Positions 51,038-62,764 of a DNA stretch of 64,000 bases are shown piece by piece. Position 1 is the stretch's first letter; every line of letters begins with the position of its first letter. The position numbers and the translations under genes were made by a program. Below the pieces are notes generated by a model that saw only the letters and a list, made by a program, of their open reading frames with translations, had not been told where the DNA came from and made no database searches. The stretch covers positions 18,897,001 through 18,961,000 of the forward strand of contig JAWHQI010000016.1 in NCBI GenBank assembly GCA_033032865.1, read 5' to 3'. This DNA comes from Dactylorhiza incarnata. Its lineage: Eukaryota; Streptophyta; Magnoliopsida; Asparagales; Orchidaceae.

Positions 51038-52258
51038 TGTTGGAACTTATGTTCCACATCTCTTAGTATGAGAATAACAAATCACACTATGTATTTGATC
51101 TTGCTTCTGTTTATAGTATGTAGGTACTATAGTTAAATAACCCTATGAACAGGATGCTGATTAATCATGATTCTCTGGAAAGAGAGTTAACGCCCCGCGT
51201 TAAGTAGCTAACGCCCCGCGTTAAGTAGCTAACACCCCGTGTTAGTAGTTAACGCTCCGCGTTAATTTCCGTCGAGAAGGAATCCGTCGAGATGAAATGT
51301 CGTTGAGAAGGAGTCTGTCGAGAAGCCAGAGACAGCGCTAGTGTTGACTCTTAACTCCCGCATTGAGTCCACGAATCTGCCACGATCCCGACAGTTGCAC
51401 GATCTCATCCATGACAATGCACGTTCACTAACGCTGGCATTAACTATTAACGCCACGCGTTAGCTCCCATGTCTATTTAAAGACCTGATTTCGTTGCTCA
51501 AAATGACATGCATCCAAGCCTTCATTCCCGACTTTTGAGAGAGTATTTCATCCCGAATTCAAAAGAGTACTCCCATTACCACCATTGAAGAATAAGAGTG
51601 AGAAGGAGATTTCAATGGCAAATTTGAAGAAGGACGCTCTCTTCAACTCTGACATGGTCATTGCGTATCTTCAACATCTCCTTCAGCACTCTTAAATATA
51701 GGGAGTCTTTTGTTCTGATTTAAATTTATCTTTTCATATTTTCTTGTAACGGTAGTGAAATCACTGCCTTGCGTGTGGCGGCTAGGCCAGGTTCAATTTA
51801 TGGGGAATTTTGCTGCCTTGTGTATGGAGACTAGGTCTAGGGTAGATCTAGGGGGTGGCTAGAAGCCTTATCTGGGGATAGATAGGCTATAACCAACCGG
51901 TCCTTGGGAGAAGGACCAGTGATGGAACAAAAAAGTGAATTTTATCCTGTCGCCTTTATTTTAATCGTTATTGAAATTATATGTTTGTAATCATCTTTTT
52001 GAAATATATAATATTCATTTTTATCTCTGATTGTCTGAAAGTGTATTTCATTTAAGATTGTGCAAGTAAAATCACTTTGAATATTTCTGCAAAAATATTT
52101 TCTGGAGAGATAATGCCCGATGTTAACTATCTAACGCCAGGCGTTAGCGACAGAACCAAAAAGGTTTTCTGTTATTTTAAAATCTGTCAGTTTATCTCAA
52201 AAATAGTAAACCCCTTATTCACCCCCCCCCCCCTCTAAGGGCGCCATCAGATCTAACA
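51038..52258 (+). repeat. 5' LTR of copia A
   Basis: TGTTGGAACTTATG ... GATCTAACA, 1221 bp. The middle has four TAACGCCCCGCGTTAAG-type words (51187-51262) and GTCGAGAAGGA words. GTTAACTATCTAACGCCAGG-type text recurs near the 3' end (52118-52140). The CCCCTCTAAGGGCGCC block at 52221-52245 is the family's LTR end. Confidence 0.9.
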
Positions 52259-52260
52259 CT

Positions 52261-52272
52261 TGGTATCAGAGA
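52261..52272 (+). promoter_or_regulatory. primer-binding site of copia A
   Basis: TGGTATCAGAGAG two bases after the LTR. Confidence 0.85.
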
Positions 52273-52286
52273 GAGGTTATTCCAAA

Positions 52287-60090: not shown

Positions 60091-60775
60091 TTAAAGCAAT
60101 AGGGTTTGGAAGCTTGTAGAAAGACCATCTAATCACCCCGTTATTGGTGTCAAATGGATATTTAAAAATAAATTAGATGGAGATTCTAGAATCACTAGGA
60201 ACAAAGCTAGATTAGTAGCACAAGGCTATTCACAAATTGAGGGGGTCGACTTTGATGAAACAGTCGCTCTCGTTGCTCGCCTTGAATCGATTAGAATTTT
60301 TCTTGCATTTGCGAGTTATATGAAGTTTAAACTATTTCAAATGGATGTAAAAAGTGCATTCTTAAACAGGATAATTAAAGAAGAAGTCTATGTAGAATAA
60401 CCCCCAGGTTTTATAGATGAAAAATTTCCAAATCATGTCTATAGATTAGAACAAGCGCTTTATGGTCTAAAACAAGCGCCCCGTGCTTGGTATGAACGTC
60501 TAACATCCTTTTTATTAAAGCACGGTTATAAAATGGGTAGTGCCGACAATATGCTCTTCATTAAGCATATTAATGATGATATAATTATTTTACAAATATA
60601 TGTTGATGATATTATTTTTGGAGCCACTAATGAAGAGCTATGTAATGAAGTTGTACTTGTAATGCAAAATGAATTTGAAATGAGTCTAATTGGTGAATTA
60701 ACTTATTTTTTGGGCTTTCAAATAACCTAAAGAAATGAAGGAATCTTCGTATGTCAATCTAAATATGTTTATGAT
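60091..60775 (+). pseudogene. pol: copia B reverse transcriptase
   Basis: WKLVERPSNHPVIGVKWIFKNK, VAQGYSQIEGVDFDETVALVARLESIRIFLAFAS, LFQMDVKSAFLNRIIKEEVYVE, a TAA at 60398, PPGFIDEKFPNHVYRLEQALYGLKQAPRAWYERL, ILQIYVDDIIFGAT (catalytic YVDD at 60600-60611) and ELTYFLGFQIT followed by TAA (60728). The metal-binding Asp residues are intact, but the stops prevent full-length protein. Confidence 0.9.
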
Positions 60776-61546
60776 ATGTTAAAACGATTTGGATTTGAAA
60801 ACTTAAAACAAGCTAGTGCTCCAATGAGCGCATCACTAAAATTAGGAAAAGATGAAACTGGGATTTCCATTGACCAAACTTTATATAGAGAGATGATTGG
60901 ATCCTTATTATACCTTAGTGCATATAGACCCGATATTATGTTTATCGTATGCTTATGTTCTAGATTTCAAGCAAACCCAAAAGAATCTCATTTAAAAGCG
61001 GTAAAACAAATATTTAGATATCTTATTGGCACACCTAAACTAGGACTTTGGTATCCAACCAATGATTCCTTTCTATTACATGGGTATTCCGATTCCGATT
61101 ATGCGGGTTGCTCTCTAGATAGAAAAAGCACTAGTGGCACATGCCATTTCTTAGGTCCTTCTCTAGTTGCATGGTCAAGTAGAAAACAAAATTCCATTGC
61201 CCTCTCCACCACCGAGGCACAATATATTGCACCAGGAAGTTGTTGTGCCCAAGCTTTATGGATGACTCAAACCTTAGAAGATTTCAGAATTCATCTAACT
61301 AATATTGAACTCAAGTGTGACAACAAGAGTGCTATTGATTTAACCAACAACCCCGTTCATCACTCAAGATCCAAACACATAGACGTTAGACATCATTTCA
61401 TTAGGGATCACATAAAAAAGGAACATGTTCATGTAAACTTTATTGGAACTGAATCCCAACTTGCTGACATCTTTACCAAGCCTCTACTCGACTCCCGCTT
61501 TGCTCTACTTAGATTAGAATTAGGAGTCTTAGACTTAACAAATTGA
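60776..61546 (+). pseudogene. pol: copia B RNase H
   Basis: 256 open codons: MLKRFGFENLKQASAPMSAS, LYREMIGSLLYLSAYRPDIMFIVCLCSRFQ, LHGYSDSDYAGCSLDRKSTSGTCHFLGPSLVAWSS (Asp), STTEAQYIAPGSCCAQALWM (Glu), LKCDNKSAIDLTNNPVHHSRSKHIDVRHHFIRDHI (Asp), QLADIFTKPL. Natural end ...LGVLDLTN. Confidence 0.9.
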
Positions 61547-62764
61547 AAACTCATCACAAGTTATGAAAAATCAAATAAAAAAAAGGATAAAACTATTTTG
61601 AAGCCACCAAAATATGCTTAAATAAGCCTTCTACTCATTTCCATTTTCTCTGAAATTTCTACCCTAAGAAGGTCTATGTACATACTCCCTATTCCATAGA
61701 TTTTTTTTTCAAAAATCTCTAAAAATCATGTACTGTCCAGGCGTTAACCAGTTAATACCAGACGTTAGTCTTTTTGATCAGATTTAAATTATGTCTTCTC
61801 TGCCATATTTCTGGTATTTCTCTACTGCTATTTCCTTAAATTAATTTGCCTCTTAATTTATTATTTTCACCTCAAAAATACAAATAAATAGATATATAAC
61901 CATTTTAAAAATTTACAAAACTCATGCTTGATTTGCCTTCTAGTATCTTCTAAATTATCTGAAATTTCTACACTATGAAGGCATATATACATGTTATTTA
62001 TTCCAACAATTTTTTTCAAAAACTTTACAAAACAGTGTCCTGTTTCGGCGTTAACTACTTAATGCCAGGCGTTAGTCCTCTTTTGCAAATGTGAAAACTT
62101 TTTTGGGGGTTATTGCCAAATTATTTTTGGTTATTGTTTCTTTTCTAATTTTATATTTATTTTCTGTTAGGTCAATTTTAAAATTCAACAAAAATATATA
62201 TAATCCAAAATCCAAAAATATTTTTTTTCATGTGTTGTTGCTTATCTATATTAAATTATTGTTTGACTATATGTCTTCACATGAGCACAGCATCTTAATC
62301 ATCTATGTTTCAAATGGTCAATCTTATTTGGGCATACACAAAAAGAGTTTCTTAAATGAGCAATTTTAATTTCAAATTTATTAAACACTGTCCTATTTTT
62401 CATTCCTTGACCTTAATCTAATTATGTGCAATGAAATAGTCTATAGATAATTGTGTATGTTTTGCCTAGCATGCCTCTAAGCATGAGCAATATTTTATGT
62501 TAATTAATGATCCATACACACACTTTTTTGATGATCTACATATGTTCATAATCTTCAACTTGCATGATTGTGTAATGGAATAGTTTTAATCTATTAAGAT
62601 ATTTGTCTACATTACTAACACCTTCACTCAAACAATAAATTTCTTGCACATATAGAAGTGATTACTTTCAAAAATAGTATATTGTGTTTACAACAACAAG
62701 TGAATTTCGAGACCTTTGGCCCACTATTACACTAATATGAAATATAAAGCCAAAGATAACTCAA

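Follow-up and report, generated by a model that had tools for sequence, protein, structure and literature searches.

What keeps the same palindromic words in the long terminal repeats (LTRs), the gag gene and the 3' region of a retrotransposon? The question is raised by a 64,000-nucleotide (nt) stretch of the orchid Dactylorhiza incarnata (GenBank assembly GCA_033032865.1, contig JAWHQI010000016.1, forward-strand positions 18,897,001 to 18,961,000; hereafter the window), which consists of nested plant-like retrotransposon DNA. An earlier note had pointed out such words in two adjoining elements, Copia A and Copia B, and in a pol-less relative, P; it had suggested that LTR and internal words change together, and had offered protein recognition sites, RNA packaging stems or gene-conversion tracts as explanations. 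We conclude that the feature is real, non-random and mostly known: the words are probably a local variant of the RM boxes of Sireviruses, i.e. sites for a host factor that would drive the LTR and perhaps an env promoter, with an intragenic copy in gag. Palindromes in the LTRs and the 3' region are an already published Sirevirus feature (Bousios 2010, PMC2829016; this and the other papers cited are represented by excerpts throughout). What goes beyond the published RM boxes, and may be new, are dyads at a homologous place in the gag genes of Copia A and Copia B, the recurrence of the words in the LTR of a Ty3/gypsy element, and dyads whose starts lie 18-21 bp apart; these three additions need more copies for proof.

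The palindromic words and their number

The four elements concerned are the following.

~51038 to ~55306, plus strand: Copia A, with its 5' LTR from ~51038, primer site at 52261 and gag-pol to ~55306, where Copia B starts
~55310 to the window end, plus strand: Copia B, with its LTR at ~55310-56511, primer site at 56514, gag-pol to perhaps 61.5 kb, then a linker
~4840 to 11651, minus strand: P, with LTRs at ~4840-5901 and 10603-11651
23126-30639, minus strand: C, a fourth Sirevirus-type element, with LTRs at 23126-24691 and 29058-30639

Words were found at all the places of A, B and P where the earlier note had put them (coordinates are given with each feature below). Element C with its TCGACG-type words, the CTANCGCC words of the gypsy LTR, the 18-21 bp pairing and the TATA-like boxes come in addition.

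A dyad consensus, YYANCGC-N1-3-GCGNTRR, was derived post hoc from units already seen. With at most one mismatch it has 28 matches in the 64 kb, all 28 of them in element LTRs, linkers or gag sites, whereas 60 dinucleotide shuffles gave a mean of 1.13 and a maximum of 4. The gag and P-linker zones were drawn around sites already seen, the point being that nothing was found elsewhere. With up to two mismatches, a level that includes chance matches, there were 62 dyads against a shuffle mean of 21.3 (raw matches: 71 in the forward window versus 20 in the reversed one). Copies of the half-site CTANCGCC, its complement included, number 20 over the 64 kb, where a first-order Markov model predicts 1.94; every one lies in an A, B or P LTR, a gag site, a linker or the gypsy LTR. 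For CTAACGCCAGGCGTTAG, 12 strand-wise matches with up to three mismatches fell in 7 places (0.02 expected), and 26 of the 31 window copies of GCGTTA/TAACGC are within 51187-62075. A second consensus was built from 21 of the 22 LTR units (11426-11442 left out) and was unchanged when all 22 were used; this LTR-only consensus has 19 matches without mismatch, none of them outside, and 28 with at most one, a single one being outside (3224).

A background or low-complexity origin, which the earlier note had itself seen as the threat to its proposal, was rejected within the window by the dyad, half-site, shuffle and Markov counts. Scanning the window for Rfam families and tRNAs gave no match. Scans of viral and genome contig collections with an integrase piece yielded no outside copies, the dyad with W at its centre had no match in the viral contig collection, and none of 110 candidates from a protein collection reached E <= 0.001 with the Copia B gag tail.

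Dyad arrays in the LTRs

The LTR clusters are the following.

51187-51463, plus strand: Copia A dyad array, with start spacings of 21, 21 and 20 bp and a later pair 19 bp apart
52131-52147, plus strand: perfect, full dyad of Copia A on the downstream side of the TATA-like box, close to the 3' end of the LTR
55480-55848, plus strand: Copia B dyads, three times with 18-19 bp from one start to the next
11351-11497, minus strand: P 5' LTR, five dyads (at most two mismatches), of which four succeed one another at start distances of 18-19 bp
5603-5747, minus strand: P 3' LTR dyad cluster
30150-30460, minus strand: C 5' LTR cluster of TCGACG-type palindromes
24205-24505, minus strand: C 3' LTR cluster of TCGACG-type palindromes

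Eight dyad pairs with starts 18-21 bp apart were counted at up to one mismatch (two in the A LTR, two in the B LTR, two in the P LTR and one at each of the two gag sites) and 16 at up to two, when the best of 60 shuffles had 0 and 1, respectively. Such a spacing is about two helical turns. The Copia A array stops 9 bp short of a TATA-like CTATTTAAAG at 51473 and the Copia B dyads 9 bp short of a TATA-like CTATAAATAG at 55858, both patterns having been picked after the sequence was read; in P the gap between the 5' LTR cluster and TATAAAT (11321, minus strand) is 29 bp. At up to two mismatches, some of the matches being due to chance, Copia A has 11 dyads (9 in the LTR, 2 in gag) and Copia B has 9 (6 in the LTR, 2 in gag, 1 in the linker). 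The upper half of the LTR holds 8 of the 9 LTR dyads of A and all 6 of B, so that both elements have what is published for RM boxes, i.e. at least eight copies per element, mostly in the upper LTR half before the TATA box.

An array that close to a TATA-like box would most likely be an upstream promoter element. The half-sites of this local RM variant would be CTANCGCC / GGCGNTAG, and a dimeric host DNA-binding factor could sit on dyads that follow each other at about two turns of the helix. Palindromes without function could also be produced by slippage, by hairpin-templated strand switching of the reverse transcriptase or by gene conversion. Tandem arrays do occur, as shown by the 21-bp period in Copia A, and strand switching that corrects palindromes would yield paired changes like those described below for gag. 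This neutral origin is a poor fit to the recurrence of the words in the same places, to their adjacency to TATA-like boxes and to their presence in a gypsy LTR, and we hold it to be rather improbable.

The word clusters are CpG-rich (observed/expected 1.2-2.2) amid CpG-poor element interiors (0.29-0.65). The palindromes might thus chiefly be targets, as hairpins or as CpG sites, of small RNAs and methylation of the host, their fast change being an escape; in maize, Sirevirus palindromes are indeed small-RNA hotspots (PMC5311732, PMC10760457). Targeting would account for a cost of the words, not for their being kept, paired and placed near TATA-like boxes, and it is compatible with promoter boxes of the RM type. 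As the chief explanation we find it improbable.

A second family of words (TCGTCGA / TCGACGG units) lies between the dyads in the A, B and gypsy LTRs (51268-51325, 55516-55603 and 49000-49190, respectively). In A and B it is arranged in tandem with periods of 15 and 20 bp, and a small number of CpG 9-mers of this type are common to more than one family.

Sirevirus character and the RM boxes

Where their gag-pol stretches align, Copia A and Copia B have 73.7% identity. Their domains (Retrotran_gag_2, gag_pre-integrs, rve and SH3_retrovirus in B; Pol_BBD in A) make them copia-type. No reverse transcriptase was found in the pieces of Copia B that were scanned; were pol to end at 61546, the linker would measure 2.2 kb or more. 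The hallmarks of Sireviruses are multiple AGGGGGAG tracts, an AT/TG attachment site and a polyC integrase signal (PMC2829016). Elements A, B, P and C show such hallmarks, among them the following.

52218-52237, plus strand: polyC tract of Copia A resembling the integrase signal
56471-56490, plus strand: polyC tract of Copia B resembling the integrase signal
63776-63896, plus strand: four AGGGGGAG octamers of Copia B, like the multiple polypurine tracts of Sireviruses

The polyC signal is also present in the 5' LTR of C (29108) and in P (10637 and 4882); the 3' LTR of C gave no match, and all four elements have the signal in at least one LTR. In P there are four AGGGGGAG octamers with a terminal AGGGGGAGATTG at 5911, in C three with the terminal one at 24701, and both elements have the AT/TG junction. 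The 3' LTR of Copia B lies outside the window, and Copia A is cut off before its polypurine region. Another copia element has the octamer twice (39270 and 40970). The primer criterion for Sireviruses was a Met-tRNA site TATCAGAGC following CA/ATTGG or CA/AGTGG. The site is exact in B and one base off in P and C (TATCAGAGG) and in A (TATCAGAGA); the LTR/primer junctions are CA/AGTGG in B and P, CA/CTTGG in A and CA/GTTGG in C.

The RM palindromes of 13 Sireviruses are element-specific and CpG-rich; they cluster in the LTRs of all 13, upstream of the TATA box, and nine env-bearing elements have linker copies, 77 of 79 being upstream of env (Bousios 2010, PMC2829016). The words of the window are likewise element-specific, CpG-rich palindromes before the TATA-like box, with further copies at a putative pre-env place, in elements with the same hallmarks. 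Two areas, LTR and pre-env, are described in the excerpts of that paper, and absence elsewhere is stated there for classic Ty1/copia elements only (PMC2829016). Clustered palindromes are likewise known from the cis-regulatory part of the LTRs of the maize Sireviruses Ji and Opie, which differ from the present ones in their word, CACCGGACNNNGTCCGGTG, and its placement in the LTR; the same maize palindrome has been reported in Helitrons, a precedent for sharing across transposon classes (PMC5311732, PMC10760457). We recognised no report of RM copies in gag, or of one palindrome common to copia and gypsy LTRs, in the literature searched, for the most part as titles and the openings of abstracts.

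Copies upstream of the env position

Extra copies of the words lie at the pre-env place in B, P and C, where no env gene was identified.

61740-61768, plus strand: Copia B linker, about 1.5 dyads, within 61566-61770, the first copy of a diverged repeat whose second copy is 61874-62077
62047-62075, plus strand: Copia B linker, about 1.5 dyads, upstream of a linker region common to B and P
7656-7693, minus strand: P linker, one dyad (the word of the earlier note, 7656-7671) plus an extra half-site, at the place equivalent to 62047 in B
26588-26860, minus strand: interior cluster of TCGACG-type words in C, upstream of a broken frame with an ATG at 26421, at the env position

These linker copies may form a second array acting as an internal promoter, as proposed for RM boxes (Bousios 2010, PMC2829016). 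The broken frame of C (25000-26424) begins after a pyrimidine-rich stretch and CAG/G. Two pieces of it that were scanned had no Pfam match; the B and P linkers were not searched for env.

The RNA packaging stems of the earlier note received no support as a general explanation. Folding outside gag covered two linker words and the U5-side word, not the U3 arrays, and gave unremarkable z values (-1.75, -0.87 and -0.83). Covariation between units as proof of an RNA stem was not supported: among 26 matches with at most 4 mismatches of 14 in 51036-63999 (74 in the window, some due to chance), 6 paired double changes were seen versus 4.9 when permuted, and 1660 of 5000 permutations were as high. Eleven hand-picked composite words gave no clear excess of paired changes for either possible stem. 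A hairpin is possible in gag, as described below.

A stretch of the form CCAAGCA..TACT...CACCTTGG is found twice in the B linker (62765-62824 and 62930-62990, plus strand) and once in the P linker (~6967-6908, minus strand). The copies have a similar two-part stem whose inner pairs vary complementarily between them; the B copies have modest folding z values (-1.8 and -1.4) and no Rfam match.

P-type words in the LTR of a Ty3/gypsy element

The element at ~44.5-50.7 kb has Retrotrans_gag, RVP_2, RVT_1, Integrase_H2C2 and SH3_Tf2-1 domains and is therefore a Ty3/gypsy element. Its 3' LTR (~48853-50731) seemingly opens with TGTAAGACACC after a G tract at 48820, and carries P-type words.

48908-49264, plus strand: eight P-type dyads (at most two mismatches) of the gypsy 3' LTR, the last ending 6 bp before TATATATAAAG at 49271

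Three dyad pairs with the 18-21 bp spacing are present, all at up to two mismatches. A 17-mer is identical between the gypsy LTR (49156-49172) and P (5731-5747); the other short matches between gypsy and P LTRs reached at best E = 6.5e-4 in a search of small stretches. This sharing can be read either as host-shared regulation or as an exchange of LTR modules. The 5' copy of this LTR matches over its last 575 bases only; the dyad cluster is thus observed a single time and might have been inserted later. Against this, a related gypsy LTR at ~20.0-21.4 kb is collinear with the 3' LTR up to 49467 and has a palindrome cluster of its own (21726-21851) just beyond.

It is the sharing with a gypsy LTR that argues for a host rather than an element protein as the presumed binding factor. 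Sites for a DNA-binding or anti-silencing protein encoded by the elements themselves would be analogous to those on which VANC proteins act for VANDAL elements, and the vocabulary does differ between element families. The proteins of the gypsy element belong to a different superfamily, though, and the interior of P has no open frame of 150 amino acids or more; such sites seem to us very improbable. A broader form of the host-factor reading, in which a single plant factor would read paired CTANCGCC dyads, spaced by some two helical turns, as a host-wide code, copia Sireviruses (pol-bearing or pol-less) and a Ty3/gypsy element having converged on the box next to their TATA boxes or exchanged it and the gag box having been kept, is conceivable to us, on the unlikely side. 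A word common to copia and gypsy LTRs of one genome, with a recurring spacing, is a concrete probe for the factor.

Del LTRs, also Ty3/gypsy, have variable CpG islands in their 5' part (Cruz et al. 2014, PMC4029996), and the variable CpG-rich patch seen here is also in the 5' part of a gypsy LTR. The excerpts of that paper describe neither palindromes nor a common copia word, and the gypsy element of the window is not assigned to Del.

Further CpG palindrome clusters (TTCGACGAA and GTCGACTAG words) occur at 21726-21851 and 34170-34440, within or adjoining sequence akin to the 48853-50731 gypsy LTR; each gypsy family may therefore have its own promoter vocabulary.

LTR words against interior words

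CpG-containing 10-mers of each LTR were sought in the element interiors and their number was compared with 200 shuffles. Own-LTR 10-mers were in excess in A (11 for 0.9 expected), P (5 for 0.6) and C (17 for 1.1), no shuffle being as high. Since 10-mers overlap, few places are marked: the gag site for 9 of the 11 in A, 7667-7671 for all five in P and 26588-26838 for all 17 in C. The interior of B has none of its own (expected 1.7). It holds 10 A-LTR 10-mers instead (expected 1.5), of which 2 are at the gag site, 1 at 61737, 6 at 62047-62066 and 1 at 56995; reciprocally, the interior of A holds 13 B-LTR 10-mers (expected 0.9). With word lengths of 8 and 9, the own-LTR excess was again found for A, P and C and again failed for B. 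Two weaker matches were also seen, namely 6 gypsy-LTR 10-mers in the interior of A (expected 1.6; 8 of 200 shuffles as high) and 10 gypsy-LTR 9-mers in that of P (expected 3.8; 7 of 200).

The vocabulary is thus a property of families, not of copies. That LTR and interior change together, as the earlier note had it, is true between families and false between the sister copies A and B; concerted change of single copies was not supported, the interior of B matching the LTR of A and not its own. Gene-conversion tracts, another of its proposals, received no positive support: besides this mismatch within B, comparison of the window with itself gave no LTR-interior match of 80 bases or more within an element.

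Dyads inside gag

The gag sites of Copia A and Copia B are at aligned places.

53936-53971, plus strand: Copia A gag tail, two dyads 20 bp apart, in an open frame continuing into a protease-like region; forms an RNA hairpin
58178-58213, plus strand: gag tail of Copia B, at the place that aligns with the A site (the variant string of the earlier note starts at 58186); second dyad good, first degenerate yet self-complementary

The A dyads, CTATCGCCAGGCGTTAA and CTAACGCCAGCGTTAG, are between the CHG..GLGY peptide and the protease-like region; the B sequences are CTATCGCCCATCGTTGA and CTAACGATGGCGTTAG. Six of the eight residues encoded at the site differ (QALTPNAS in A, PSLITNDG in B), and two base pairs of the inner stem have changed on both sides between A and B. 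Among 300 shuffles of the A-B columns, a dyad with two paired changes came up once and one with at least one paired change 18 times. Judged by the post-hoc consensus, 2000 synonymous-codon shuffles per element yielded a single run with a dyad pair for A and likewise for B; one dyad or more came up in 211 runs for A and in 104 for B. By the LTR-only consensus, a pair equalling that of A was found in none of 3000 synonymous shuffles of the A frame, a pair with at most one mismatch in each dyad in 2 and a perfect dyad in 6.

The gag dyads are a third placement, probably an intragenic copy of the same binding box, which A and B would have kept since before their divergence. If it is kept, the same signal would be read within a coding region, which promoter-only models do not predict. 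The alternative is an RNA stem at the gag-pol boundary, serving recoding, packaging or translation control, whose likeness to the LTR words would be secondary or coincidental. Both sites out-fold dinucleotide shuffles (z = -4.05 and -3.89, with 1 of 200 shuffles as good for each) and have the same 7-bp inner stem and 5-nt loop, the outer stem being interrupted; to this are added the paired changes, equalled in 1 of 300 column shuffles, and a stop codon of Copia B (58485-58487) between gag tail and protease region, in a frame that otherwise continues; this stop may reflect either decay or recoding. Sireviruses do have a stem at this boundary, a 27-nt motif with an 11-bp stem, a 4-nt loop and covariant bases (PMC5009743, PMC2829016), and the present site resembles it in being an inverted repeat with covariant bases close to the junction of gag and pol. 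Its interrupted stem and larger loop are unlike that published geometry, no stop interrupts the A frame as it passes from gag tail to protease-like region (A is, however, broken at a point upstream of there), and the A site fits the LTR-only consensus to a degree that none of the 3000 synonymous shuffles attained. With two sequences only, B being the weaker, binding site and RNA stem are inseparable at gag. We regard the hairpin as a serious rival there, and as unlikely.

Another gag hairpin is present in Copia A (53608-53634), with a long stem and a 4-nt loop; it is closer in shape to the published Sirevirus gag-pol stem.

Binding sites weighed

Of the three explanations in the earlier note, recognition sites are the best supported, by the half-sites, the two-turn spacing, the adjacency to TATA-like boxes and the sharing with gypsy; binding itself, a role as promoter and the age of the copy in gag are suggested by these patterns in the sequence, a host protein being favoured over one from the elements. 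Several observations weigh against the words being a local variant of RM boxes bound by such a factor. Dyad counts, pair counts and TATA adjacency are partly circular because the consensus, the zones and the A and B TATA patterns were chosen post hoc. Regular spacing inside an array can be obtained by tandem duplication alone, and the P 3' LTR has no TATA match like the one that adjoins the dyad cluster of the 5' LTR. The published RM core is CGG-CCG in 12 of 13 elements (PMC2829016), whereas that of A and B is ACGC-GCGT; one of the 13 also lacks the core, and CCG is retained in the P form CTACCGC, which is similar to the Inga box AGCGGTASTACCGCT. The interior of B is devoid of CpG-containing 10-mers from its own LTR. 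At gag, a good RNA hairpin with two paired changes is not predicted by simple protein binding, and the LTR-only consensus finds one dyad and no pair in B, where 90 of 3000 shuffles of the B frame had a single dyad as good; the B site therefore rests on its alignment with A and on its self-complementarity.

Minor features of the window

An open frame at 43963-44994 starts in the LTR of a copia element (38125-44513, minus strand) and continues, without a change of frame, into the gag domain of the gypsy element. Beside a minus-strand copia gag, an inverted repeat at 2259-2369 (87.5% across 112 bases, the core being a perfect 20 bp) has a word resembling the Met primer site on each arm.

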